Below are positions 10,403 through 27,056 of a stretch of 52,069 nt of DNA, in pieces (position 1 is the first letter of the stretch; each line of letters starts with the position of its first letter). Origin of the DNA: Thermoplasmatota archaeon. GTDB taxonomy: Archaea; Thermoplasmatota; Thermoplasmata; Thermoplasmatales; Thermoplasmataceae. The stretch lies in contig JAMDDH010000056.1 of assembly GCA_023488885.1 (NCBI GenBank), forward strand, positions 1-52,069, written 5' to 3'. The notes under the pieces were generated by a model, which searched no databases, was not told where the DNA came from, and saw only the letters and a list, made by a program, of their open reading frames with translations. A program made the translations under genes and the position numbers.

Positions 10403-11356
10403 CTAATCAACAACGTTTTCCATGAGTTCAATGTATGGAGAATCGGATGAGAGTATCATCCGGGCATTCAGGGGTATCAGCATCTGGTCCTCCCCATGCC
10501 CGAATGGAAGTCCGTATATGGATGGTTTCTGGAGTTCGTTGATGTACTGTTGCACTATGTCCTCTATGTAGGGCATTGGCTCTTCAACATCAGTAATCTG
10601 CCTGAACTCCCCGAAAGCGAATCCCACAAAGTCCCCAATCATCGCGGATAGCTTCATGACCGAGAAATACCGGTCGAGATCACCTGAAGTTATGCCTGTA
10701 TCCTCTGCAAACATGATTTTGTTATTGGGAGAAGGCATATACTGTGTTCCGGTAAGGGAAGAAGCTACGGAGATGTTGGTGCCAATGGATTTTCCTTCAA
10801 CCTTTCCCTTGTAAATGTATTTTATAACACGATCAATGAAACGGGAAATGTCAAGTGAATTTCCAGACAGCACATCCAGAAATGTCTTGAAGAGCGGTTT
10901 GCTGTATTCATCCGGATCAGAGGCAGGCATTGGCCCGTGAAATGTGACTAGGCCAGACAGCTTGTTGATTGCCATGTGCAAAGCAGTGATGTCGCTGTAT
11001 CCTATGAGTATCTTTGGATGTTCCCTGATTATGTCATAATCCAGGTGCGGAAGAATGTGAATGGAACCGTATCCACCTCTTGCGCACAGAATTGCCTTCA
11101 CGGAATCATCCTTGAATGCATCCATCAATTCATGCGTTCTCTCATCAGCAGGAGCAGCTAAAGAATTCCTCTGGACGAGTTTCCGTATGTTCCGTCCGAG
11201 GGAAATTTTAAAGCCCAGCTTATTCAGTCGGTTTATGCTCCTGGAAAGATTTTTCATGTCAGGGGCACTTGCAGGAGCTACAATTCTTATATCGTCCCCC
11301 AAGTGTAACGCGGGAGGCTTGACGGTTTCTGTGATTTCTTTATAAGCGTTCACCAT
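10403..11356 (-). CDS. S66-family LD-carboxypeptidase-like serine peptidase (LdcA/MccF)
   Basis: This 317-residue protein belongs to peptidase family S66. The nucleophile elbow GYSDITAL gives Ser121, AEDTG gives a probable Glu, and PFGHGEDQ gives a probable His, forming the Ser-Glu-His triad. In bacteria the family cuts the L,D bond of murein tetrapeptides or inactivates microcin C. A wall-less archaeon has no murein, so the role may be detoxification or scavenging of peptides or murein fragments from neighbours. Its start overlaps the end of the M20 gene by 17 bases, so the two are co-transcribed. Confidence 0.9.
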   Translation of the reverse strand: MVNAYKEITETVKPPALHLGDDIRIVAPASAPDMKNLSRSINRLNKLGFKISLGRNIRKLVQRNSLAAPADERTHELMDAFKDDSVKAILCARGGYGSIHILPHLDYDIIREHPKILIGYSDITALHMAINKLSGLVTFHGPMPASDPDEYSKPLFKTFLDVLSGNSLDISRFIDRVIKYIYKGKVEGKSIGTNISVASSLTGTQYMPSPNNKIMFAEDTGITSGDLDRYFSVMKLSAMIGDFVGFAFGEFRQITDVEEPMPYIEDIVQQYINELQKPSIYGLPFGHGEDQMLIPLNARMILSSDSPYIELMENVVD

Positions 11357-12712: not shown

Positions 12713-13312
12713 TCAGCTATTCCCGACATTGTCATTCTCCTTCTCGCTCTTTTCCTTTATCATCTCATCAATCTTTTTATCCAGATTCTCTTCGCGCTTA
12801 TCGGCAGATGATTTAACGTTTCCCCATATAGAATCTGCATATTCCCTGATCAACTTATCATCCGGCTCATTGTCGTTTCCGGTGGTCAGTTCAGAAAGCT
12901 GCTGGAGTTTTTTCTCATATTCCTCTGACCTGATTTTGTCTTCCATGGCACCCTGCTTGATCGAATCTATGTCTGCCTCCATTATGCTCTTATTTCTCGC
13001 ATTATCCTGATTGCGCATGGACACGAGATTCTTAACATTGTCCAGCCCGAGGATCTCCTTTTCCATGGATTCCAGTCTTTTTACCTTCTGTTTGAGGCCG
13101 TTGTCAATCCTGAGGATTTTATATGCGATGGATCTTCTCTCCTGATCGTCCTTGTCCATCCCTTCTTCCTTCAGCCGGCTGATCATAGCCTGATCCTTCT
13201 TCATTTCCGCGCCAAGCAATATCTTCTTCTTCTCCAGTTCTCCTATCTGCGCCTCAATATCTTTAACTTTCATTTTATCCAGTGCCGATTTTTTCGACTT
13301 AAACAGTGCCAT
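12713..13312 (-). CDS. Small charged coiled-coil protein, ESCRT-III-like candidate
   Basis: This 199-residue protein is almost wholly alpha-helical and highly charged. A basic N-terminus (MALFKSKKSALDKMKVKD) is followed by coiled coil to about residue 150 and an acidic, flexible tail ending in ENLDKKIDEMIKEK. Size, basic first helix, helical hairpin and acidic tail resemble ESCRT-III/Snf7 proteins. The tail pattern Leu-x-x-Lys-Ile-x-x-Met resembles a type 1 MIT-interacting motif and closely matches the tail of the 216-residue protein at 15837. The ATG lies 2 bases after the 642-residue gene, with AAGGAGGATA as ribosome site, so it is translationally linked to that gene. ESCRT-III homology is a structural guess. 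Confidence 0.55.
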   Translation of the reverse strand: MALFKSKKSALDKMKVKDIEAQIGELEKKKILLGAEMKKDQAMISRLKEEGMDKDDQERRSIAYKILRIDNGLKQKVKRLESMEKEILGLDNVKNLVSMRNQDNARNKSIMEADIDSIKQGAMEDKIRSEEYEKKLQQLSELTTGNDNEPDDKLIREYADSIWGNVKSSADKREENLDKKIDEMIKEKSEKENDNVGNS

Positions 13313-13314
13313 AA

Positions 13315-15243
13315 TTACTTTATCCTCCTTATCATGTGCAGATCCTTCTTTTTCTCAACTGCTGCCAGCCCCTCATTCTCAAGAGTTTCCGTCACTTCCC
13401 TTAGTGATTCCAGTGTAATTTTCTGTTCTTCCGCTATCCTTTCAAGAGATATCTCAGGGAATCTGTCCATATAACCGTTTATCGTTTTCTTAAGGTGGTA
13501 GGTTCTCTCTTCTTTCAGCTGCAATTTTACAATGTTGCTTATGGTTGGATCGGGAATCGGCTTGTTTCCAAAAGTATTTCCTGTTACAGGGTCCATTGCA
13601 AAAATGAAGAGATTCCGCAGATAAAGCCGGTGATCTCCTGAAAGGTATTCCACGATTTTCCTGTCAAAGCCAGTGGGAGAAACCAAGACTACATAGGCTG
13701 CCATATTGTCTGAAGAATATTTCTTCACTAGATAGTCAAGAAGATCCACAAATTCGGAAAGCGAAAAAGGCTTGTTATCCACGGCGTAGGTGTTGAACCG
13801 GTTCTTGTGAATCAGATAGAAAACTGAGAAATTAAGGTTGAGTGCAGGGGCAAATATCCTCTTCTTCTGGAACCTGAAGGTTGTTCCCGTTATTACAACG
13901 GTGTCATTTCTCCCGGCAGTGCTCTCGTCCTGTGACGACGAATACAGCTCATTCCTCGTTGACACTTTAAGTTCACCGTTTCTCAAAGGATCTATAAGTG
14001 TCAGGGGGAGAGATTCCTCTATTTTCTTCTTAAATCTGGACAGTAAATCAATTACCTGAATCTTAACCTGGTCAACAGTAATGAGGTTCCCGCCGTACGG
14101 ATTATCGATTAGGTTCTGGATCTCCCCAAGTTCATCCTTGTACTTGAGGACATGGGACTCAATCTGATCTTCAAAATCCCGAAGCCTGGCAAGGGAAGAT
14201 CGCATATCTTCAATCCGTGAGTCGAGGTATCCTATCTGTGCAGATTTCACGACCTTCACCTTTTCATCTGCTTCGTTCGTCAGGTTCAGGTCCAGTCCTC
14301 TGACCATGGAAGTGCCCTTGTCAATTATCGTTGTAATCTCGCCGATCCTGGAGGATATTTCTTCCTTCAGGAGTTGATGATCACTAACAAGGTTTTCATA
14401 AGCACTCCTGATTTGTTCCATGGATTTTGTTGTATCATTACTGTCCGGAAGTCCAAGGACAAGTTTGTTTATTCTATCAAGAGTTTCAGATTCCCTCGCT
14501 TCAAGAAGTTCATGTTTCCTTTCCATTTCGGTAATCGGCACATAACCAAAGCCGGCAACCAACCCATCCCATTGGGTCTGGGCATCGTACGCCCTGTTCA
14601 CAAAATCTGTATATTCATTAAATAGCCTCGCTGCGGCAGTAGAATCCTTTTTTATGTAATCAATGAGGCCCTTTGTTATAACCTCGAATCTCCGGTCATA
14701 CCTGTTCATGATCTCGCGCTTGATGCTGTTCCGCATCTTGCTCTGCGGAGTTGCCTCAAGTATCTTGTTGAATTCATCCATCTGGTTGTTGTACCAGCTC
14801 TTTATGATCTCATATATCTGGCCGTTTTTCCTTTCCAGCGCTTCCCTGATCTTGTCTGAATCAAGTGCATCTATTCCCGAGAAGCTTTCCAGTCTCTCCA
14901 CAGCATTTATTTCCTCCAGGGACGCCTTTCTGACGTTTTCCTCAAGGCTCGTACCAGCTATCTGGGGATCATTCCTGAGTACGCATATCAGTTTCACCAT
15001 GTCGAAATCAAACTGAGATGCTATGGATAGCCTTATTTCCGGTATGTAATTCGCGCTGCATTTCTCCTCGAACTGCTCCTTTGCGAATTTGATATCATTA
15101 TACTTGCGTACCTTCCATTCAAAGTCTCTGGAGATGAGGTCCTCCATGTCAGAGTCGTTTATTGCCACGATCTTGTCGAGGTACCCGTTGCATTCTGATT
15201 CATTTCCGCTGCTCAGCGAATTTCTTCCGGAACTATTTTCCAT
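13315..15243 (-). CDS. Large coiled-coil protein with C-terminal winged helix, function unknown
   Basis: I do not recognise this 642-residue protein as a named family. The N-terminal 430 residues are helical and rich in coiled coil, with no membrane segment. A compact alpha/beta domain follows (about 440-590, including VVITGTTFRFQKKR and AAYVVLVSPTG). The last 60 residues look like a winged helix (ISLERIAEEQKITLESLREV). A winged helix after helical domains also occurs in archaeal CdvB, although this protein is much longer. It overlaps the upstream 171-residue gene by 11 bases, has GGAGGAAT before its ATG, and runs directly into the 199-residue gene, so it is the middle gene of a three-gene operon. 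It may be a scaffold or adaptor. Confidence 0.75.
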   Translation of the reverse strand: MENSSGRNSLSSGNESECNGYLDKIVAINDSDMEDLISRDFEWKVRKYNDIKFAKEQFEEKCSANYIPEIRLSIASQFDFDMVKLICVLRNDPQIAGTSLEENVRKASLEEINAVERLESFSGIDALDSDKIREALERKNGQIYEIIKSWYNNQMDEFNKILEATPQSKMRNSIKREIMNRYDRRFEVITKGLIDYIKKDSTAAARLFNEYTDFVNRAYDAQTQWDGLVAGFGYVPITEMERKHELLEARESETLDRINKLVLGLPDSNDTTKSMEQIRSAYENLVSDHQLLKEEISSRIGEITTIIDKGTSMVRGLDLNLTNEADEKVKVVKSAQIGYLDSRIEDMRSSLARLRDFEDQIESHVLKYKDELGEIQNLIDNPYGGNLITVDQVKIQVIDLLSRFKKKIEESLPLTLIDPLRNGELKVSTRNELYSSSQDESTAGRNDTVVITGTTFRFQKKRIFAPALNLNFSVFYLIHKNRFNTYAVDNKPFSLSEFVDLLDYLVKKYSSDNMAAYVVLVSPTGFDRKIVEYLSGDHRLYLRNLFIFAMDPVTGNTFGNKPIPDPTISNIVKLQLKEERTYHLKKTINGYMDRFPEISLERIAEEQKITLESLREVTETLENEGLAAVEKKKDLHMIRRIK

Positions 15244-15748
15244 TTTTTATTCCTCCGAATATTTCAATCTCCTGGCTGAATTCCTTTTCAACAAGATTCA
15301 CTCCCTCCGTCGGTCCCCTGATCTCAATCAGCAGTTTCACAGGCTGAGTGGAAATAAATGTTACGTCAAGTTCAACAGTCGCTTTTCGTGTCATAATTCT
15401 GTACGACAAGATATCTCCGAGTGAGGATACCAAGACTCCGCGCCTTTTGTTGACCAGATAATTTATGAATGCCTTAACCTGATCATATTTCTGCATGTCC
15501 GAAAAAACGAAAGACACCCTACATGTCAGTGATTCTATTTCCGGCCTTACCTCAGCCAGTTTATACGACCCTATCCTGCTCTCAGGAAATTTAGCTGCAA
15601 TTGTCTGGTAGAGCACTTCGAAATCTTCGTCTTTAACAAATATAACATAACCTTTCGGGCGTTCAGTGGATTGCGGCCACTGGTTCATTATGTATTCAAT
15701 TTTCTTCCGTTCTGCCTCGTTTTCATACTCTACCTGGATGATGTGCAA
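15233..15748 (-). CDS. Hypothetical protein, first gene of the coiled-coil operon
   Basis: This 171-residue soluble alpha/beta protein has no motif I recognise. The start must be the TTG at 15748 or later, because a stop codon lies three codons upstream. A TATA-like ATTTTATACA at about 15775-15784 on the minus strand fits a leaderless start there. It overlaps the 642-residue gene by 11 bases, so it likely acts with it. Its conserved genomic setting rather than its sequence is the only clue to function. Confidence 0.7.
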   Translation of the reverse strand: MHIIQVEYENEAERKKIEYIMNQWPQSTERPKGYVIFVKDEDFEVLYQTIAAKFPESRIGSYKLAEVRPEIESLTCRVSFVFSDMQKYDQVKAFINYLVNKRRGVLVSSLGDILSYRIMTRKATVELDVTFISTQPVKLLIEIRGPTEGVNLVEKEFSQEIEIFGGIKNGK

Positions 15749-15776
15749 GATTGATCATGACAAATAAGATGAGTAT

Positions 15777-15805
15777 GTATAAAATAGTTTCTCCATAACG
15801 GAGAA
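15777..15805 (-). promoter_or_regulatory. Promoter with inverted repeat upstream of the coiled-coil operon
   Basis: The perfect inverted repeat TTCTCC-ATAAC-GGAGAA occupies 15789-15805. On the minus strand it runs into GGAGAAACTATTTTATAC (15777-15794), where TTTTATAC is the TATA element for the TTG at 15748. A very similar string, GGAGAAAACTATTAATATAC, lies at 20454-20473 before the small membrane protein gene, and GGAAACTAATTTATAC lies before the AAA ATPase gene. The similarity suggests co-regulation, although part of it is the general BRE/TATA consensus. Confidence 0.5.
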
Positions 15806-15836
15806 TACATAAATTTCATCGAAACAGAGACTTTTA

Positions 15837-16487
15837 TTATTTCTTCCCTCTTTCCCGGTCAATCTCTTCCAGACTTTCACTGATTTTCTTATCGAGATCG
15901 GAGACCTGTTCTTTCTCACTGGTCTTTGCACCCGTCGACCTTACTGATGAACGCTCAGTGGATACTGCCCTTTCGTCAATGTTTGATACCATGGCGTCAA
16001 GGGATTTCGGATCTATGCTGTCAAATGAAATCAGCCTGTCACCAACGTTTTCGAGAACGCTATCAAGAGCCTCACTGAGTTTTTCAGAATTATTGAGGGC
16101 TTTTTCCATTTCTATATTGATCTGTGTTATGGTTTCATAATTAACACCATTCTCTTCAAAAATGTTAACGAAATCCTTGATTGCAGTGGCCATTTCTCCC
16201 CAGTTTTTCAATTGTTCAAGATTTAGTTCCATGTCGTTCATCATAAGGACAAAGGATTTTGCCCTCTTCTGCTGGCCGTCAAGATTAACCAGGCGTACCG
16301 CGAATTTTTTAACAAGAGCGTCGTTGCCAAGCCTCCTTGCCTCCACAGCCTGCGTCAAGTAGCTGTCCCTCAACTGGGAACATTTATTTGAGAATCTCTC
16401 CATGGAATCTTTTGCCCTGCGGATGCGCAGCTTTCTTTCCAGATCAAGTTCCTGTTTTGACTTCTTCTTTTTTCTTAATTGAACCAT
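15837..16487 (-). CDS. ESCRT-III/Snf7-like protein (candidate CdvB relative)
   Basis: This 216-residue protein has the overall plan of ESCRT-III subunits: a strongly basic N-terminal helix (QLRKKKKSKQELDLERKL), a long second helix containing QAVEARRLGNDALVKKFAVR, further amphipathic helices, and a Ser-rich acidic linker leading to a C-terminal helix SDLDKKISESLEEID. That last helix resembles a MIT-interacting motif, and an MIT-type AAA ATPase is encoded 5 kb away. ESCRT-III proteins polymerise on membranes and drive scission after Vps4 remodelling. The ATG is 1 base beyond the stop of the upstream membrane coiled-coil gene, with GAGGG as ribosome site. Remote homology is judged by eye. Confidence 0.6.
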   Translation of the reverse strand: MVQLRKKKKSKQELDLERKLRIRRAKDSMERFSNKCSQLRDSYLTQAVEARRLGNDALVKKFAVRLVNLDGQQKRAKSFVLMMNDMELNLEQLKNWGEMATAIKDFVNIFEENGVNYETITQINIEMEKALNNSEKLSEALDSVLENVGDRLISFDSIDPKSLDAMVSNIDERAVSTERSSVRSTGAKTSEKEQVSDLDKKISESLEEIDRERGKK

Positions 16488-16488
16488 A

Positions 16489-17103
16489 TTATACCCTCAT
16501 GAGTTCTTTGTACATTTCCTGGTTTCCATTCAATTCAAGCAGGTAATCTTTCATCTGCCTGATGTTCATGGTTTCCTTGATGATTCTTTCATTATCAGAC
16601 TTCAGCCTCTTCTGGCTGATTTTGTTTAATTCAGTCCACATCCCGTTTTTCATGAGAAAATTCTTTCTATTGATGAGCAACATTACGCTGTTTGAGAACT
16701 CTTTGGCGGTCAATAGTTCGTCAAACTGATTTTCAGCCAGAGAAAGATTTTCACGGGCATTTCTTAAATCAAGCTGAAGGACCCTGTTATGGACGTCTTT
16801 TTCCAGATCGGATTCAAGCAGTTTAATGGATTGTTTGAGCTCAGAAATTTCGTTATGCTTTTTCGATGCATCCACATTGATCTTCTCCATAGTAATCTTG
16901 AGTCTTTCCATGGAAAGTTTTTCCAACTTCCCCTTGAACAGGCGCCGGTATAGGTAATAGAATGTAAGTGCGTAGGGAGCTGTCACAATAAGAGATGAAG
17001 ACAGTCCGACCATCTGAGCGGCCTTAAGTATGGATGACCCCGCGGCTCCGATAGCCTTAACTCCGGAGGTGAGCAGACCCATATCATCGTCATTCAAGGT
17101 CAT
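16489..17103 (-). CDS. Membrane-anchored coiled-coil protein
   Basis: This 204-residue protein has a hydrophobic stretch at about residues 12-45 (AAGSSILKAAQ then MVGLSSSLIVTAPYALTFYY), likely one membrane helix or a hairpin, followed by a basic flank (RRLFKGKLEKL) and a long coiled coil. The ATG at 17103 is preferred over the longer reading to 17361 because a minus-strand TATA element TTTATAATA lies near 17147-17155. It is the first gene of a two-gene operon with the ESCRT-III-like protein. A membrane anchor that recruits the polymer, analogous in position to CdvA or ESCRT recruiters, is an inference; no sequence similarity to CdvA is apparent. Confidence 0.65.
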   Translation of the reverse strand: MTLNDDDMGLLTSGVKAIGAAGSSILKAAQMVGLSSSLIVTAPYALTFYYLYRRLFKGKLEKLSMERLKITMEKINVDASKKHNEISELKQSIKLLESDLEKDVHNRVLQLDLRNARENLSLAENQFDELLTAKEFSNSVMLLINRKNFLMKNGMWTELNKISQKRLKSDNERIIKETMNIRQMKDYLLELNGNQEMYKELMRV

Positions 17104-17146
17104 GATGGAGAATAGCCCTATCGTGATATATAGATTTTGCCAGTTA

Positions 17147-17380
17147 TTATAAATACGAATACTATAGAAATCACCATGGCGGAAGAAAATTGCCCTGGCA
17201 TTGCCTATAAGTGATTCAGAAGCCGAACGGAACAGATCAGGGGTAACCGGGACTGATGGAAAGAGGTTTGAGGTCGTTATCAGTGGAAATGCCATCCGGC
17301 GTAAAATCCCGACATGTTTAACAGAGATCATAACTTTATAATACCCCAGATATTTATACACACCGTCAGGAGTGATTCCT
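17147..17380. promoter_or_regulatory. Divergent promoter region between coiled-coil and GTPase operons
   Basis: Two divergent transcription units start here. The minus-strand TATA element is near 17147-17155. The plus-strand elements CTTTATAATA (about 17333-17342) and ATATTTATAC (about 17350-17359) precede the GTPase ATG at 17383, which has the ribosome site AGGAGTGAT at 17368-17376. Divergent arrangement from a shared region is consistent with coordinated expression of the locus. Confidence 0.45.
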
Positions 17381-17382
17381 CT

Positions 17383-18756
17383 ATGAAGAATCGAATTCTA
17401 TATCCTTATCTTGGTTTTGTATTTCTCCTGTCAGTTGCTACAATTGCATTTTCGAAGAGATATGTGTACGATTCGTTTCAGGTATTTGTTGCAGCAGCCT
17501 TGATAACCCTTATTTTCAACCCGCTCTCCTGGGCCGTATATTATGTTGCCGGAAACAGGAGAGCTTATTTCAAAAGATCTGAAATGCTGATTGTGTACGA
17601 GACACTGGTGCTTTTCATTTCAGCACTTGGAGCCGGATTTACTTATGGTCGCCTGAACCTTGCGCTATTCTTTATGATTGGAAATCTAGCCGTACCTATC
17701 TCCTGGGCCGTGATTTATTTCTCCATAGACCGGGGCAGAACGAGTAAGGTCAATCCAGGAATGCAAAGAACTGCTGCCACAGCCCCACCTACCACAACAT
17801 CTGTCTTGGGTCAAGGGAAAAGCTTTTCCATCGAATCCAGGAACAGTGGAGCCCAGAATTCATATGGAGACTCACCCAGCTATGCTTCAGCAAAATCTCA
17901 AGCTTCACAGGTTGTCCAAAAACAGGCATCTGCAAACATTCCTGTACGTTCCCAGGGATACCGGGTGAACCAGGATTTTGGCAGCGATATTACGCTTGTC
18001 GGATATGTCGGCGGCGGAAAAACAACTTTTACTGCACTTTTTGTTTACGCGTGCCAGTTCATAAAAGGGATTCCAAACTTCAGGTACGTTATCGAATCGT
18101 CAAGCCCGCTATTGAGACAAGGCCTTCAGGACCTTCTTTCCGGAGAATGGCCTTCCCTGACTTTGCGTTCTGAATTCCGTACACAGACAAGAATTGTTTT
18201 GAGCAGGAAAAATGGCTTTAAGAACCGGAAGGTAAACCTTACTATAAATGACGTCAGCGGCGAAATATGGCGGGAGATTGCAGAACAGTCAGAAAACCCT
18301 GGTCCAAAACTTGCTCAGCTTATCAGGGAAAACCCCTCAGTACGTTCCCTGATTAAGGCAGAAAAGTATCTTGTTACAATAAACTGTTCAGATTTTGATC
18401 ACTGGACTTCTGAGCAGCTTTACATACTGGATCTATTTCGTTCCATCAGGGCAATAAACGGAGGCAGAAAAATGAAAAAAGGAATTGGAGTGGTCTTCAC
18501 TAAACTGGACCTTCTGCCGGCCGGACTTCAGGACAGAGATCCGGAGATCCTGATGAGAGACCACCTGCCCTTCGTATATTCCTATATTGATGCACATTTT
18601 GATTCCAGAATATTCAATTATTTCAAGGTCGGCCTGAGGGTTGACGAAATGAACAAACCGGACGTGAAGATCGAAGAAGGCAAGAAGAAACTCACCATTC
18701 TTGGTGGAGGAAAGATTGGATCTTTTCCGGAAATAGTCAGGTGGATGCTTGATTGA
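17383..18756 (+). CDS. Membrane-tethered P-loop GTPase
   Basis: This 457-residue protein has four predicted transmembrane helices (about 8-24, 31-55, 69-88, 92-115), a low-complexity Ser/Ala/Gln-rich linker (about 125-195), and a cytosolic GTPase domain. The GTPase motifs are G1 GYVGGGKT (207-214), G3 DVSG (290-293) and G4 TKLD (373-376). A G4 motif of the NKxD type supports GTP rather than ATP. It resembles GTPases encoded beside GAP1 proteins in predicted conflict systems (the DO-GTPase group), and indeed the next gene overlaps it by 4 bases (TTGA). The ATG at 17383 is chosen for its good Shine-Dalgarno sequence; the frame opens earlier at 17314. The motifs are clear; the family is probable. 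Confidence 0.75.
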   Translation: MKNRILYPYLGFVFLLSVATIAFSKRYVYDSFQVFVAAALITLIFNPLSWAVYYVAGNRRAYFKRSEMLIVYETLVLFISALGAGFTYGRLNLALFFMIGNLAVPISWAVIYFSIDRGRTSKVNPGMQRTAATAPPTTTSVLGQGKSFSIESRNSGAQNSYGDSPSYASAKSQASQVVQKQASANIPVRSQGYRVNQDFGSDITLVGYVGGGKTTFTALFVYACQFIKGIPNFRYVIESSSPLLRQGLQDLLSGEWPSLTLRSEFRTQTRIVLSRKNGFKNRKVNLTINDVSGEIWREIAEQSENPGPKLAQLIRENPSVRSLIKAEKYLVTINCSDFDHWTSEQLYILDLFRSIRAINGGRKMKKGIGVVFTKLDLLPAGLQDRDPEILMRDHLPFVYSYIDAHFDSRIFNYFKVGLRVDEMNKPDVKIEEGKKKLTILGGGKIGSFPEIVRWMLD

Positions 18757-20414
18757 AAGATACTGTTGAATGTAATCAGTTACTATATGGCTGGGCAGGA
18801 AGCCGAACCGGGAGAGGTTACCAGACGGTAGCAGTTTCCTCAGGGCTTCAGCAGGAAGATATTAAGTATATAGAGTCACACCCGCTGCCAGTTTCATTCA
18901 TCCCAGGTTCGTTTGACAGCTGTTTCAGAAAATACACGCTGCCGACAGGTAAAATTGCATTCTCTTTCATAAAGAATGCCGGCAAAGACGAATTCGGAAG
19001 AGAAGGCGCATACTATGCTCATTTTATAGTGGTAACTCAGGAAGACCTTTATTACGGCGGAGTAAGCGCTGCTGACCTGACCGGGAATTTTCTCGAGGAT
19101 CCTGATGAGGTAACATATATCCTCAGGAATTTTCAGTCAACACTGATTCAAATCCCAAAAATTGTTATTCCGGCAAGAACTCAAAGAATCAGAATTGATC
19201 CAAGGAAGTATTTTGCATCAGAGAACGACCTCGCATGGTTTATTTCCGCGCTGTCAACGACACGATTTCCTATCGTTGTGGAACTTCCGGAAAACGTGAC
19301 ATCACAGGAGGCATATCTGGATATATCCAGAATATTTGAGTACCTTCCGCATGAATATATGTCGCTGCCAATTACTTCATATTCCAGCAGTTTGAAGAAT
19401 GAAACTGCTCTATTCAGAATATTTCTGACAGACAAAGGATCTCAAGGAAGGGAATCAGTTTCCATTGACAGTTCAGTAATTTTCGAAAACGGATCGCTGA
19501 GGAAAAAGTTTAGCGATCATCTGAAAGAAGAATACCTGTTTGTGTCGAGGATGCTGTGGAATATGGATGAATCTTCCTTGAACTCTTTTCTGCAATACTT
19601 CAACAGCCTGCCAGATAACCTCGGAATGGACCTCAGGTTCAGGTACAGTCACGCAGAATACACCTTCTCTTTAAATCCCGGGATCGATTTCGCCATATAC
19701 CTTTTCAACGGTGCTCCCACAAGGGAAAAACGAAATTATTATGAAGGGAAAATTAAGGATCTCGCAGTCACACCAGAGGATTTTGAGAAGGTTGCAGCAA
19801 TCTATCTGAAACTCCTTGATGATGCCGAATCCAATGAGATTAATACTGTACTTGTCCAGTCTCTCAACATCCTGAAATATACGGAAATGGCAAAAAATCT
19901 CAGTGATTACCTTGAGAATTCACTGAAGATATATTCAAGGCTCGGGGACAGTTTTCCCTTCTTGGAAGTATTCAGGTTATTGTCCAACGAAGATGGAATG
20001 CCAGATTCAGCGCTTTCATCCTTCATACTTTCAAACAAGTCAGCGTGCAGGAAATACGTGGACGATTTTCTCGCAGACGGTAAATCATATCCTGGGTTTC
20101 TTCTCGTCGAAAAAGTCCTTGAAGGTTCACTTGGTAAAAAAGCAGTAGATGATTTTGTGTTCAAAGTTTATTTCAGGAGCCTCCAGAAATACAATCTGGA
20201 TGCAGGCATCGGTTTCCTTGAGAATTACATTGATTCAGGTTTTTTTGACAAAGACGTTGCAATTGATATCATGAAGGATCTATTCAAGAGAAACAGGAAA
20301 AATTCAGACCCGGAAATATCACAAAGTATAAACGATCTCTTTGACAAACTTACTGAGATGGGACTTTCACAAAAAGAGAAAGATAAATTCAGGAAGTTTC
20401 ACGGAGAAAATTAA
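18753..20414 (+). CDS. GAP1-N2-like GTPase-associated protein
   Basis: This 553-residue cytosolic protein begins with QLLYGWAGSRTGRGYQTVAVSS and continues with FGREGAYYAHFIVV near residue 90, a pattern I associate with the N-terminal domain type 2 of GTPase-associated protein 1 (GAP1-N2). The remainder is mixed alpha/beta and then helical, in the position of the GAP1 middle and C-terminal domains. The TTG start overlaps the GTPase stop codon, so the two are translationally coupled and probably bind each other. In bacteria, GAP1 partners are predicted to sense or transmit signals to the GTPase; no biochemical activity is established to my knowledge. Family call is by eye. Confidence 0.6.
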   Translation: MKDTVECNQLLYGWAGSRTGRGYQTVAVSSGLQQEDIKYIESHPLPVSFIPGSFDSCFRKYTLPTGKIAFSFIKNAGKDEFGREGAYYAHFIVVTQEDLYYGGVSAADLTGNFLEDPDEVTYILRNFQSTLIQIPKIVIPARTQRIRIDPRKYFASENDLAWFISALSTTRFPIVVELPENVTSQEAYLDISRIFEYLPHEYMSLPITSYSSSLKNETALFRIFLTDKGSQGRESVSIDSSVIFENGSLRKKFSDHLKEEYLFVSRMLWNMDESSLNSFLQYFNSLPDNLGMDLRFRYSHAEYTFSLNPGIDFAIYLFNGAPTREKRNYYEGKIKDLAVTPEDFEKVAAIYLKLLDDAESNEINTVLVQSLNILKYTEMAKNLSDYLENSLKIYSRLGDSFPFLEVFRLLSNEDGMPDSALSSFILSNKSACRKYVDDFLADGKSYPGFLLVEKVLEGSLGKKAVDDFVFKVYFRSLQKYNLDAGIGFLENYIDSGFFDKDVAIDIMKDLFKRNRKNSDPEISQSINDLFDKLTEMGLSQKEKDKFRKFHGEN

Positions 20415-20453
20415 AATTTGTTTATTCGTCTATAAACATGTAGTTACCATAAT

Positions 20454-20473
20454 GGAGAAAACTATTAATATAC
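20454..20473 (+). promoter_or_regulatory. Promoter of the small membrane protein gene
   Basis: GGAGAAAACTATTAATATAC combines a purine-rich BRE-like block and a TATA element about 35 bases before the ATG at 20504. It closely matches the element before the coiled-coil operon (15777-15794, minus strand), including the preceding CCATAA block, which hints at shared control. Confidence 0.45.
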
Positions 20474-20503
20474 GAATCAGATGTATATCTAAATAGGGAA
20501 AAT

Positions 20504-20803
20504 ATGGATATACAGAATCTATTCGGTTCGAATTATCAATTTGTGCTCCTTCTTCTTACTCTGTCATCTGGATTATTTATTGGCCTGGCACTTAAGAAAG
20601 GACTGATGTCAGTAGTTCTCGGAGTAGTTGGTTATTTAATTGCATCGTACATAGCACTTCCATTGATTCCAACCATTTCTGTGTCATCATTTGCTGCACT
20701 CGGAAGGTCATATGCAGGCTTGATACAGTTTAATTCCCCGATTCTTTCGTTTTCGTTAGTGGTTTTTGCAATAGGTCTTGGTCTGGGGATATGGAGAGGA
20801 TAA
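20504..20803 (+). CDS. Small three-helix membrane protein
   Basis: This 99-residue protein is strongly hydrophobic, with three predicted transmembrane helices at about residues 11-30, 33-55 and 76-97. I recognise no family. It has its own promoter rather than being fused to the GAP1 gene 90 bases upstream. Its place between the GAP1 gene and the AAA ATPase suggests a membrane component of the same machinery. Confidence 0.65.
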   Translation: MDIQNLFGSNYQFVLLLLTLSSGLFIGLALKKGLMSVVLGVVGYLIASYIALPLIPTISVSSFAALGRSYAGLIQFNSPILSFSLVVFAIGLGLGIWRG

Positions 20804-20864
20804 TGAAGTCTATATCCTTAGGCTTGTGACCTGAAATAAACAAGACCTCATCTTGAAGGAGTTT

Positions 20865-22007
20865 TCAGAAAACACCGGCATTTTTCAAAAACTTATCGTA
20901 TTTCTGCATAACCTGTTCATCGACAGATTTCCTCGTCTGCCCAACAACAGCTTCTATCTGCTGTTGGTCGATCTCCTTTGCTGAGCCGTTCTCAATGGCA
21001 TTCCTGAATGCCTGCTCCGCGACTTTCCTGCACATGTAATCAATATCTGCGCCAGTGTAACCCTGTGTCATTTCAGCCAGATGCAGATAGTCGATTCCCG
21101 GAGATATTTTTCTTCCCTTTAGGGAAAGCTCGAACATCTTCTTTCTGGCGTTCAGGTCCGGCGGGCCTATGAATATATTTTCATCAAAGCGGCCTGGTCT
21201 CATCAGCGCCTCATCTATGTCCCACGGATTGTTTGTTGCTCCTATGATCAGAACCATGTTCTTGCGATCCCTGTTAAATCCATCCATCTCCGCCAGGAGT
21301 TGTGGAACCGCCCTCTTCATGACAGACGAATCTGTCCGGCTACGTTTTGGAGCAAGTGCATCAATTTCATCAAAAAATATCACGGTTGGAGCAGTTTCTC
21401 GTGCCAGGCGGAAGAGTTGTTCAATCTTCTTCTCGAAGGATCCGAACCATTTGCTGAGCAGAGTCGAGGGGTTAATATAGACAAATTTTGCATTCACTTC
21501 GTGAGAAATGGCGCGAGCTACGAAAGTTTTCCCTGTTCCCGGGGGGCCGTAGAGTAGTAACCCTCCTCCCGGAGAAATCTTATATTCTTTCGCGAGAGAT
21601 GCATTTCTGGCTGGATATATAACCTTGTTGAAAATTTCCTCCTTTACCTTCTCAAGTCCAGCAACATCATTGAAAGTAACGTCCGGAACGTTAGCGACGC
21701 TTACTCCGAGTTCCTCGTAAGATCTCGCATAATCCTCGCTTTCCCCCGGTTTTACGGATTCTCTGGCAGTTTGATTTGCAGCATCATTCTTTGCTCGCTT
21801 CCCCATGTTAATAAGTTTCTCAGCATTCTCTACTCTGACCTTCTTAAGTTCTCCTTCGCTCTGGGCAGCGGCATCGAGAAGATTCTTTGCAGCTTCGTAA
21901 TATTCCGTAGAGGCTGCTTCATTGTTACCGGAACTGATATTTTCCTCTGCTTTCCTCAGATGATAATACGTATTTTCAAGCAAGTCTCTGACATTCATTC
22001 CGTTCAA
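20865..22007 (-). CDS. Vps4-like AAA ATPase with N-terminal MIT-like domain
   Basis: This 380-residue protein has a three-helix N-terminus (about residues 5-75) with the MIT pattern (AEENISSGNNEAASTEYYEA), a linker, and a single AAA module. Motifs are Walker A GPPGTGKT (154-161), the aromatic pore loop SKWFG (185-189), Walker B VIFFDE (209-214), sensor 1 GATNN and arginine fingers in MRPGRFD (about 270-273). A single AAA domain after MIT is the Vps4/CdvC plan, in which the MIT domain binds ESCRT-III tails and the ring extracts subunits. The C-terminus has a helix like Vps4. The start is the TTG at 22007, 26 bases from a TATA element, or the ATG at 21998. It is convergent with the small membrane protein gene. 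Confidence 0.85.
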   Translation of the reverse strand: MNGMNVRDLLENTYYHLRKAEENISSGNNEAASTEYYEAAKNLLDAAAQSEGELKKVRVENAEKLINMGKRAKNDAANQTARESVKPGESEDYARSYEELGVSVANVPDVTFNDVAGLEKVKEEIFNKVIYPARNASLAKEYKISPGGGLLLYGPPGTGKTFVARAISHEVNAKFVYINPSTLLSKWFGSFEKKIEQLFRLARETAPTVIFFDEIDALAPKRSRTDSSVMKRAVPQLLAEMDGFNRDRKNMVLIIGATNNPWDIDEALMRPGRFDENIFIGPPDLNARKKMFELSLKGRKISPGIDYLHLAEMTQGYTGADIDYMCRKVAEQAFRNAIENGSAKEIDQQQIEAVVGQTRKSVDEQVMQKYDKFLKNAGVF

Positions 22008-22025
22008 ATAGGTAAAACATTCAGT

Positions 22026-22045
22026 CAGTATAAATTAGTTTCCTG
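22026..22045 (-). promoter_or_regulatory. Promoter of the MIT-AAA ATPase gene
   Basis: On the minus strand this reads TCAGGAAACTAATTTATACT. The TATA centre is about 26 bases before the TTG at 22007, which fits a leaderless transcript. It shares GAAACTA-T/A-TTTATAC with the promoter of the coiled-coil operon at 15777-15794. Confidence 0.45.
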
Positions 22046-22166
22046 ATCAGAAATTGTGACGCGAATCCGCTATCTATCCTTGATTTTAAGTAGCTTTCCA
22101 GTTCAAAATTCATAACTTCGCCATATAGGTTAAATTTTTATAATTATTCGTGAATAGCCTAAATGC

Positions 22167-23738
22167 ATGACAGGAGAACCAAATCGTGATCCGTCTGACA
22201 CAAAGGAATTCTTGCGTATTTCATCTCACAGCGTCAGGAAATTGAGATCTGAAAAGGGAGTATCAAAGTACTCCAGAATTAAACTGAAAAAATTGCAGTT
22301 AAAAATCAGGGATTTGAAAAGCTCAACTCTCAAATCACAGGACAAGCAGGATCTGATGTTTGAAATAAGCAACGAAATTCTCTCTTCGGAAAATTCAGGA
22401 GATTTAATTGAGTCAGAATACGTAAATTACTTATCCGGTGTTGTTTCTGGCTACAAGGAACGGTTTGCAACGTCTTTTCCTCCCGAAGATGCAAATATGC
22501 TTATCCTCAGTGAATACCGAAGCACTTTTGACATAATTAAGAAACTTGGTTCCGGTGAATCATGCCAGAGGTGGAAAGTATACAATAAAGGGAGCAAACA
22601 GGAATCCCTTCTTACTATCTATAACTTGGACGAAGGATTTTTTCCGGAACGTTTCTACGGAAGTTCCGCAGCGTGGAGGACGCTTGACCACAAGAATATC
22701 CTGCGCCTTCGAGAGGCATACGCACACAAGAAAAGCTACGGAATTGAAACGGAATTTGTAGAACAGGACGCCCTTTCGGTGTCAGGCACAGGCAGCCCGT
22801 TGAAACTGGAGGAAGCTCTCTTTGCAGCCTATCAGATTGCTGAAGGTCTCGAGTATGCCCATGGAAAAAATATCCACCATCTGGTTTTGTCTCCAGAGAA
22901 TATCTATGTTGCAAATACGGGAACCCTTAAGATAGCGGGCTGGAATCAGGCTGCAATGCTCAGGATTGGAGAATCCATGCAAATTAATTCAAAGAAAAGC
23001 ATGCTTAGATATGCTGCACCAGAAGTTATCAATCCCGGCATAGGGAAACCTTCTCAATTTTCGGACATATTTAGTCTTTCACTTCTTACGATGAATTTGC
23101 TGCTTGGTGGAACCCTTGAAACTTTACCGGAACCGCAGGAAAACACACTCCATAACGAATCACACGCAAAGCTTGTAAGTGCACTGGAGAAGCTGGAACG
23201 ACTTGATCAGGATATTCGGGGACTTCTCAAGCGTGGAATATCTCCTATTCCTGGAGAAAGAGGCAACGCTTCCCAATTCAAAGAAGCAATCGGAAAACAT
23301 CTGAGATTTACCGTGAAAGGGGAAGATAAAGGAGCAAATCTTGATGCTACGGAGTATAGGCACTCCATGGCATCGAAAAACTCCCCTCCAGATCCTGAGG
23401 AAACAGAGACTCAGAAAGAAAAAGTAACGCGGATTGAGATTAGCCTCGTAGGGGCACCGCCAGTCTCTTCTGCTGGCACGAGAAATCCGAATAGGGAAGA
23501 AGACTCCCTGAGATCAGTTGCGGCAGAACTGGAGGGCTTGATTGAAAAGGAAAGGTATGACGCAATCCTCCAAACCTTGAAGAACAGGGAAAGTACTATT
23601 CTTAGTGTATACCCGAATCTGAAGGATTCTATCGACGTAATGAAGTCAAACCTTTCTGCAGTTGTTAAATTCCCTATGGTTCCAAGAAATGAAGTGAATA
23701 CAAGGATACATGACCTGATTACTACGCTAGAAGGTTGA
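22167..23738 (+). CDS. Protein kinase-fold protein, predicted pseudokinase
   Basis: This 523-residue protein has a charged helical N-terminus (1-110), a eukaryotic-type protein kinase fold (about 115-390), and a disordered linker followed by a C-terminal helical region. The fold is marked by the glycine-loop remnant GSGESC (128-133), LDHKNILRL, SPEN (242-245), AAPE (283-286) and FSDIFSLSLL. The catalytic residues are lost: the beta-3 lysine position reads LLTIYN, the HRD aspartate is Val240 (HLVLSPEN), the catalytic-loop Lys is Ser242, and DFG reads GWN (258-260). It should therefore be a scaffold or sensor rather than an enzyme. TTTTTATAATT about 28 bases upstream supports a leaderless start at 22164-22167. 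It is divergent from the AAA gene and likely part of the same system. Confidence 0.82.
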   Translation: MTGEPNRDPSDTKEFLRISSHSVRKLRSEKGVSKYSRIKLKKLQLKIRDLKSSTLKSQDKQDLMFEISNEILSSENSGDLIESEYVNYLSGVVSGYKERFATSFPPEDANMLILSEYRSTFDIIKKLGSGESCQRWKVYNKGSKQESLLTIYNLDEGFFPERFYGSSAAWRTLDHKNILRLREAYAHKKSYGIETEFVEQDALSVSGTGSPLKLEEALFAAYQIAEGLEYAHGKNIHHLVLSPENIYVANTGTLKIAGWNQAAMLRIGESMQINSKKSMLRYAAPEVINPGIGKPSQFSDIFSLSLLTMNLLLGGTLETLPEPQENTLHNESHAKLVSALEKLERLDQDIRGLLKRGISPIPGERGNASQFKEAIGKHLRFTVKGEDKGANLDATEYRHSMASKNSPPDPEETETQKEKVTRIEISLVGAPPVSSAGTRNPNREEDSLRSVAAELEGLIEKERYDAILQTLKNRESTILSVYPNLKDSIDVMKSNLSAVVKFPMVPRNEVNTRIHDLITTLEG

Positions 23739-23782
23739 CAGCTTTACATTTATATGTGGGTACCCCGGATTGTTCGCAAGAG

Positions 23783-24140
23783 ATGTCCAAGATTCTGGAG
23801 AAGGAGAAAATTATCTGTGATAAGGGGGAAGCTGCACTACCAGGGGGTAGGTGGTGAGTTAAAAACTTTAAGCTTAGGCTTAAGAACTTGTTGCTGTTTG
23901 GTTGACGCCACCATAAAAAATCCTTACCCACCAACCTCGCTTCCAAAGAAGGAATACAAGGAAGCAGCTTTGAATAATTTGAAAGAACTCAATTTACCGA
24001 AACTCAGTCTTGCGGCTCCTTGGCATGGATACGAACTTGAGCATTGGCCGGAAGAATTTGCTAAAGACGCAATGAAAATTGTTAACGGAAATCATTACGA
24101 TGCTGCAGAGAGCCTTTCTAAACTTAGGGAGAAGGTATAA
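23783..24140 (+). pseudogene. Small gene with apparent single-base frameshift, function unknown
   Basis: The ATG at 23783 lies about 33 bases after TTTATATG, a leaderless arrangement, and opens a frame MSKILEKEKIICDKGEAALP that stops at a TGA near 23857. The neighbouring frame then continues to 24140 with plausible protein (from GGELKTLSLGL to SLSKLREKV). One extra G in either run of five Gs (23824-23828 or 23843-23847) would account for the break; removing it gives one protein of about 118 residues. It has no recognisable domain. It could be a sequencing or assembly error, a real mutation, or a programmed shift. The alternative start at 23754 gives an unusual Arg-rich N-terminus and is less likely. 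Confidence 0.55.
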
Positions 24141-26198: not shown

Positions 26199-27056
26199 TT
26201 ATTTACTGTTCAACGGAAGAATGGAATTATCGTTAAAATTTGTTATGTTCAGTTCGGGGACTGTGCCTCTACCCTCCGCCATCGAATTGATTGCCCTATT
26301 TGCCATGATCTCCCTGCAATTGAAGTCTTTATACTGTTCCTTCAGAAAATCGGTACTGGAGTTGCTGATGATTACGTACACGCCCCTATCCCACAGTTCC
26401 TTCGCAACCTTATGCAACCTGATCTGATCTTCTCCTCTGAATCCATTTGAGGTATAGTCAGTGAAACGAGAAGTTCTGGAAACGGGCATGTAAGGGGGAT
26501 CGAAGTAAACAAGATCTCCTTCAACGGCATCCGAAACTGCAGATTCAAAGTCTTCATTTTTGAACACTGCGTCCTTGAAGGCTTCACTAACTGAAAGAAT
26601 CTGGTCAGAATCAGGAATACGGGGGTTATTATAATTGCCAAAGGGAACATTGAATCTTCCTTCAGAATTTACCCTGAAAAGCCCGTTGAAACAATGGCGA
26701 TTCAGGTATAATAAGAGGGCAGATTTCATGACTGGTTCTTCTGCAATTCTGGTATTATTGAAGAGTTCCCTCGCCTGATAGTAATGTTCCTTCACGTTTC
26801 CGTACGACAATGACTTGAGAGCATCACAAAGCTCAAGCGGTTTTTTCATAACTACATTGTAGAAGTTGGAAAGATCATTATTTGTATCGGAAAGCACGGC
26901 CCTCTTAAGTAATCCTCGTCTGCGTAATTCAAAATAAAGAGCTCCTCCTCCAAAAAAAGGTTCAAAGTAGGTTCCAAATGATTCCGGAATCAGGCTCATC
27001 AAGTGCGGAATCAGCTGTCTTTTCCCACCGGCCCATTTCAGGAGTGGTTTAATCAT
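26199..27056 (-). CDS. Dam/DpnM-type adenine-specific DNA methyltransferase
   Basis: This 285-residue protein is a class D12 N6-adenine methyltransferase. The SAM-binding motif is LKWAGGKRQLIPHL at the N-terminus followed by YFEPFFGGGAL, and the catalytic motif is DPPYMP (motif IV). The family methylates GATC in characterised members, but the target here is unproved. No restriction endonuclease gene is visible beside it, so it is either an orphan methyltransferase or the survivor of a restriction-modification system; the adjacent decayed region favours the latter somewhat. AATAAATG about 28 bases upstream supports a leaderless ATG at 27056. Confidence 0.92.
   Translation of the reverse strand: MIKPLLKWAGGKRQLIPHLMSLIPESFGTYFEPFFGGGALYFELRRRGLLKRAVLSDTNNDLSNFYNVVMKKPLELCDALKSLSYGNVKEHYYQARELFNNTRIAEEPVMKSALLLYLNRHCFNGLFRVNSEGRFNVPFGNYNNPRIPDSDQILSVSEAFKDAVFKNEDFESAVSDAVEGDLVYFDPPYMPVSRTSRFTDYTSNGFRGEDQIRLHKVAKELWDRGVYVIISNSSTDFLKEQYKDFNCREIMANRAINSMAEGRGTVPELNITNFNDNSILPLNSK

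Follow-up and report, generated by a model that had tools for sequence, protein, structure and literature searches.

The endosomal sorting complex required for transport (ESCRT) is a machine that bends and cuts membranes and is common to archaea and human cells. In the Thermoplasmata it is described as minimal in the available text of a comparative survey, which lists C. divulgatum among the holders of the minimal system (Makarova 2024, PMC10936438), while the 'Main'-clade euryarchaeal ESCRT loci, as far as the available descriptions go, comprise arCOG09748, arCOG08177, STK and STP, with arCOG09748 made up of helical, coiled-coil, globular and winged-helix parts in that order. Here we analyzed a window of 52,069 nucleotides, namely positions 1-52,069 of the forward strand of contig JAMDDH010000056.1 from a Thermoplasmatota archaeon of the Thermoplasmataceae (GCA_023488885.1; genome 92.5% complete), in which ten genes, P1 to P10, were re-read between 12713 and 23738 and found to have open reading frames at the coordinates given in Table 1. 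The window holds two interleaved cassettes, an ESCRT-III-B cassette (P1, P4, P5, P8 and P9) and a GTPase cassette (P2, P6 and P7), which probably represent an extended archaeal ESCRT system that is gated by a GTPase and serves membrane budding, sorting or repair. This extended version, GTPase-linked and provided with a divergent ESCRT-III clade, is new relative to the minimal Thermoplasmata ESCRT of the available published text.

By its sequence, P4 is an ESCRT-III protein and is predicted to form a membrane polymer, in agreement with a sequence-only reading of the locus that had likened this 216-residue protein to ESCRT-III. It matched the Pfam Snf7 profile at 1.9e-7 (31.3 bits, cut-off 27.3), as did 10 of 13 members of its family when searched alone (best 1.2e-11), and a profile of the family retrieved yeast Vps24 (1.9e-6), CHMP1B (0.002) and archaeal CdvB (0.005) from the solved structures. 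The N-terminal half of P4 is basic and the C-terminal half acidic, and its C-terminus bears the MIM1-like motif DKKISESLEEI. When the last 45 residues were scanned with a relaxed MIM1 pattern, worded here after the published motif, 22 of 36 ESCRT-III proteins were matched versus 0.7 expected from shuffled tails (maximum 5 in 1000 trials). The ESCRT-III proteins split into two clades with support of 100/100 and 99/98 in two trees. The 'B' clade (99/98) comprised P4 and exactly one copy per each of the 15 genomes that carry the GTPase, and no copy from the 8 minimal-system genomes in the tree; into the 'A' clade fell the minimal-locus copies, a copy of genome G074 on a long branch and, for most other genera, the copies that neighbor the GTPase cassette. 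Counted by genome, two ESCRT-III genes were present in 12 of the 14 sampled GTPase genomes, and one in 14 other genomes of the family. The B cassette recurs in the order P8, P1 family, a divergent Vps4 (Vps4'), the P5-like family c15 and ESCRT-III-B, usually followed by another Vps4.

The cognate ATPase is P9, which matched the AAA profile at 2e-43 with intact Walker A and B motifs and a pore loop SKWFG, and the CdvC model NF041006 at 2e-61 over residues 23-374, under the equivalog cut-off. The MIT domain was matched in six of nine Vps4-family N-termini (best 1.3e-7), without a match in P9 of the window itself, and the profile also retrieved Vps4B by its MIT domain (5e-4). The AAA ATPase with an MIT-like N-terminus and a KW pore loop, as first read from the letters, was recovered, the MIT part through the N-termini of the family. 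The MIM1-like tails together with MIT on Vps4 support the usual handshake between ESCRT-III and Vps4. Up to three Vps4 paralogues occur in the extended system; among them Vps4' showed a Vps4_C domain (7e-5), which was not among the 25 families listed for P9, and Vps4' itself was not found in the window's genome at its 92.5% completeness. Five genomes have a gene of 275-286 aa placed between those of P2 and Vps4 (L052:11113-11940, L054:11722-12552, L032:13678-14538, L055:11281-12129, L056:9000-9839), with no Pfam match in the one tested. Frame breaks or a stop interrupt both a Vps4 copy and GAP1 in G284 (L116:4784-5982, L051:4745-6123), which may be pseudogenes or assembly errors.

The four-helix membrane GTPase, the GAP1-N2-like protein and the small membrane protein of the sequence-only reading all stood up to profile and hydropathy analysis. 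P6 matched DO-GTPase1 at 9e-13 and P7 matched GAP1-N2 at 2e-7, both above cut-off; P6 has kept the P-loop GYVGGGKT, DxxG as DVSG and TKxD as TKLD and has four hydrophobic segments, and P8 has three. The P6 frame opens at 17314, and its start at 17383 is a guess. P8 also occurs at minimal ESCRT loci, and it heads the B cassette. The third member of the GTPase cassette, P2, was modeled by AlphaFold2 together with 14 relatives (mean pLDDT 80) as helices to residue 232, a coiled coil at 238-410, an alpha/beta part at 414-559 and a winged helix at 597-640. Foldseek gave local winged-helix matches at a probability of 1.0, with no E-value below 0.001; the whole-protein fold search returned nothing significant beyond this local part, and the sequences of solved structures gave no match. 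The model bears out the earlier description of a 642-residue coiled-coil protein with a C-terminal winged helix, the latter also with the Foldseek matches.

In these acid-loving relatives of Thermoplasma, the two halves of the set are inherited together. Of 400 genomes of the class, 14 had P2, all of them members of the window's family, and these very 14 also had GAP1; a congener outside this sample (G002) was the 15th genome with both. The GTPase accompanied P2 and GAP1 in all 15 loci and ESCRT-III lay in the same locus in 13, the two exceptions being contigs of 6.1 and 6.6 kb; ESCRT-III was present in 14/14 of the sampled GTPase genomes, and neither P2 nor GAP1 occurred in the 14 genomes of the family that have a single ESCRT-III copy. 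Random draws from the class would yield such overlaps with a probability of ~1e-18 to 1e-24, a figure that treats related, hence non-independent, genomes as separate draws, so more weight was put on variation within genera: in genus g1, three genomes had the set, one had a minimal ESCRT-III and two had neither, and presence also differed within g3, g15 and g17, with the parts varying together. Some genomes are incomplete drafts, in which single absences are weak. ESCRT-III/Vps4 and GTPase-GAP1 are co-inherited across several genera, as the sequence-only reading required of its locus. Outside the 14 genomes, three weak P2 and two remote GAP1 matches appeared among the 400, and P2 was not found across the rest of the phylum except for one weak match. 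The P2 matches in G227, G068 and G405 appear to be chance similarities between coiled coils, and the GAP1 matches in G365 and G388 (family f15) have other architectures with no ESCRT neighbor among the genes checked. In G074, from another family of the class, ESCRT-III (2.5e-5) lies beside Vps4 (5e-98) on one short contig, and a separate contig encodes a P2-like protein (5e-19) in the vicinity of a small GTPase and of a protein of 410 residues that, judged by eye, may be Ig-like (loci L060 = G074:C169 and L117 = G074:C63), from which the set may be older than the window's family.

Relatives carry a HEAT or TPR protein after GAP1, and the window lacks the HEAT protein. By eye, the HEAT protein seems to have an Ig-like part; at L018:12152-14086 its place is taken by a TPR-repeat protein with a weak Ig-like match (TRAP-beta, 0.014). 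Homology of the HEAT protein to adaptins was considered and dropped: only HEAT and designed alphaRep matches were returned, and coatomer gamma at 0.38 is not evidence. Three genus g13 genomes encode, next to the HEAT protein, a second DO-GTPase-like protein of 798 aa (L032:4460-6856, L055:2045-4441, L056:16694-19090). At the minimal ESCRT locus of three genomes (L026, L118, L119), ESCRT-III is followed downstream by a row of five genes whose lengths are similar from genome to genome (about 357, 261, 393, 282 and 355 aa).

Among the smaller proteins, the earlier proposal of two ESCRT-III-like members held for P4 and is not supported for the 199-aa P1. AlphaFold2 predicted for P1 a helical hairpin (helices 16-51 and 56-103) followed by three more helices; Snf7 was matched by none of six relatives, the profile comparison with P4 gave only 0.7% probability, and the best fold match, to a designed bundle, had an E of 0.35, none being significant. 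The P1 family directly precedes Vps4' in most relatives. P5, at the location of c15 in other genomes, was called with 290 aa from 17361, about 86 residues longer than its relatives of 203-208 aa suggest, and the true start is probably near 17103, which would leave a divergent gap before P6. Of the membrane-anchored coiled-coil protein once proposed here, the coiled coil was retained and the anchor is weak, no hydrophobic segment passing a mean Kyte-Doolittle value of 1.6; no profile links P5 to ESCRT-III.

The kinase domain of P10 (2e-22) is catalytically dead, as had been read from its sequence: relative to the homologue in the congener G004, the catalytic Lys is Thr, HLD is HLV and GDW is AGW, replacing the catalytic Lys, the HRD Asp and the DFG Asp. 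G004 has an apparently intact kinase and, between kinase and Vps4, a metallophosphatase (5e-29); judged from these two genomes, a kinase-phosphatase pair of the Main-clade kind seems to have been lost from the window. P10, as well as P3, which overlaps the P2 start, turned up in no genome other than the window's and that of this one congener, so neither belongs to the core.

Genes P5, P4, P3, P2 and P1 run nearly end to end, separated in turn by a 1-base gap, an 88-base gap, an 11-base overlap and a 2-base gap; P6 and P7, overlapping by 4 bases, point the opposite way and are followed by P8.

Table 1. Genes of the cluster, with coordinates in the window
Gene	Description	Coordinates	Strand	Basis
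P1	199 aa helical protein, family c16	12713..13312	-	AlphaFold2 helices; without Snf7 match
P2	642 aa: N-terminal helices, then coiled coil, alpha/beta domain and winged helix	13315..15243	-	AlphaFold2, Foldseek
P3	171 aa	15233..15748	-	seen only in window and congener G004
P4	ESCRT-III (Snf7), divergent B clade	15837..16487	-	Snf7 profile, tree, MIM1-like tail
P5	coiled-coil protein, about 204 aa	16489..17103	-	probable start, from relatives' lengths
P6	DO-GTPase, four N-terminal transmembrane segments	17383..18756	+	DO-GTPase1 profile, motifs
P7	GAP1-N2 protein	18753..20414	+	GAP1-N2 profile
P8	small protein, three hydrophobic segments	20504..20803	+	hydropathy
P9	Vps4-type AAA ATPase	20865..22007	-	AAA, CdvC and MIT profiles
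P10	pseudokinase	22167..23738	+	kinase profile, lost catalytic residues

The window also encodes a D12-class adenine DNA methyltransferase near the cluster (26199-27056) and an LD-carboxypeptidase of peptidase family S66 (10403-11356), the latter in an archaeon expected to be without murein.

With the families, their co-inheritance and clustering and the MIM-like tails established, we infer the following switch, sequence of events and function. P6, with its four transmembrane segments, and its partner P7 would act as a membrane-bound GTP switch, and P2 would use its coiled coil and winged helix to couple this switch to ESCRT-III and would help polymers to begin growing, a role that winged-helix proteins have in other ESCRT systems. 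P4 would assemble on the inner membrane face, whereupon the MIT domain of P9 would grip the MIM-like tail of P4 and disassemble the polymer, and the membrane would be bent or cut in the process. P1, P5 and P8 would be accessory parts of the ESCRT-III-B cassette, and the HEAT-repeat protein of other genomes may be a cargo adaptor. Extending this, the set could be a module for membrane traffic in archaea other than Asgard, where a membrane GTPase would switch on both a solenoid adaptor (HEAT or TPR) and ESCRT-III, functionally akin to the eukaryotic Arf-type GTPases with adaptins and ESCRT; we put this forward tentatively, as the less probable step.

Several points weigh against a GTPase-gated ESCRT system. 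GAP1 stands for GTPase-associated protein and is not known to activate GTPases; the proteins are not known to interact physically or genetically; with the HEAT protein, Vps4' and an active kinase all missing, the window may hold a reduced version of the system; and the B cassette lies apart from the GTPase cassette in about seven genomes, where ESCRT-III-A still sits beside the GTPase if the contig allows. Such separation would suit two unrelated systems, an ESCRT locus and a GTPase-GAP1 locus, that happen to lie side by side, an explanation that deserves very little credence because ESCRT-III and Vps4 adjoin the GTPase cassette wherever the contig is long enough, even in differing gene orders, and the presence of this cassette matches the ESCRT-III-B clade 15 for 15.

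The two other functions raised by the sequence-only reading, division and antiviral response, fared less well. The same ESCRT-III/Vps4 core would be expected of a Cdv-like cell-division machine as proposed for the minimal ESCRT of FtsZ-less Thermoplasmata, a role that the available survey text suggests for those relatives (PMC10936438), yet FtsZ/tubulin-family genes were present in 11/11 genomes checked, the window's own included, with two over-cut-off copies each; a distribution that is patchy down to the level of congeners speaks against an essential function, and the extra paralogues and adaptors go beyond the Cdv set. Given FtsZ in all 11 and a set apparently dispensable within genera, the set is unlikely to serve mainly in primary division, and a Cdv-like machine is highly improbable; for complex archaeal ESCRT systems elsewhere, the survey authors likewise infer a job other than primary division in the text available (PMC10936438). 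Patchiness within genera would also be displayed by a defense or stress system, in which GTPase-GAP1 would respond to damaged membranes or assembling virus by triggering ESCRT-III/Vps4 as its effector. In bacteria, GAP1-N2/DO-GTPase modules are predicted to be conflict systems, and the accessible texts predict that the GTPase-GAP1 class acts in conflict near the membrane (PMC7159879) and report DO-GTPase in some stress operons of PspA (PMC11237479). An effector of the nuclease, pore or toxin type was not recognized, however, and PADLOC called no system: P2, P6 and P7 went unmatched, and P9 and P10 matched generic AAA and kinase models alone, which leaves the antiviral role without positive support and the defense explanation unlikely.

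A GTPase-gated ESCRT system would differ from each described relative in part. In common with the minimal Thermoplasmata ESCRT the window has Vps4 and ESCRT-III; it adds P1, P2, P5, P6, P7 and the divergent ESCRT-III clade, and has no member of c3, the 137-189 aa proteins beside Vps4 at minimal loci (presumed arCOG07400 beta-barrel partner). GAP1-N2/DO-GTPase systems (Kaur 2020, PMC7159879) are likewise described, in the text available, with a transmembrane-anchored DO-GTPase followed by an overlapping GAP1-N2, whereas their FNIII component and variable effector were not among the window genes by Pfam; in relatives this place is taken by the HEAT or TPR protein. PspA operons with DO-GTPase (PMC11237479) link an ESCRT-III-superfamily polymer to a DO-GTPase as here, but the polymer is bacterial PspA, not Snf7, and the accessible text mentions neither GAP1-N2 nor MIT-Vps4. 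GTPase-GAP1 partners are not reported in the available text of the ESCRT survey (PMC10936438), nor are ESCRT or Vps4 mentioned in the available main text of the GAP1 survey (PMC7159879), and the pairing was not found in the published texts searched, supplementary tables and subscription papers being outside that scope; to this extent the combination is, as originally suspected, not a described system. Compared with Main-clade ESCRT, for which the available descriptions include no GTPase-GAP1 pair, the modeled domain order of P2 resembles that of arCOG09748 as a likeness of layout only, P3 is a candidate arCOG08177 by position only, and a kinase occurs in the window and a kinase with a metallophosphatase in G004. 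A cultured host probably exists in genus g13, to which genome G017 with both cassettes belongs, and would open the ESCRT role in FtsZ-bearing archaea to direct test. GAP1/DO-GTPase systems gain a concrete candidate target, and the Thermoplasmata ESCRT, described as stripped-down, is here large, with two ESCRT-III clades, several Vps4 paralogues and a GTPase link.
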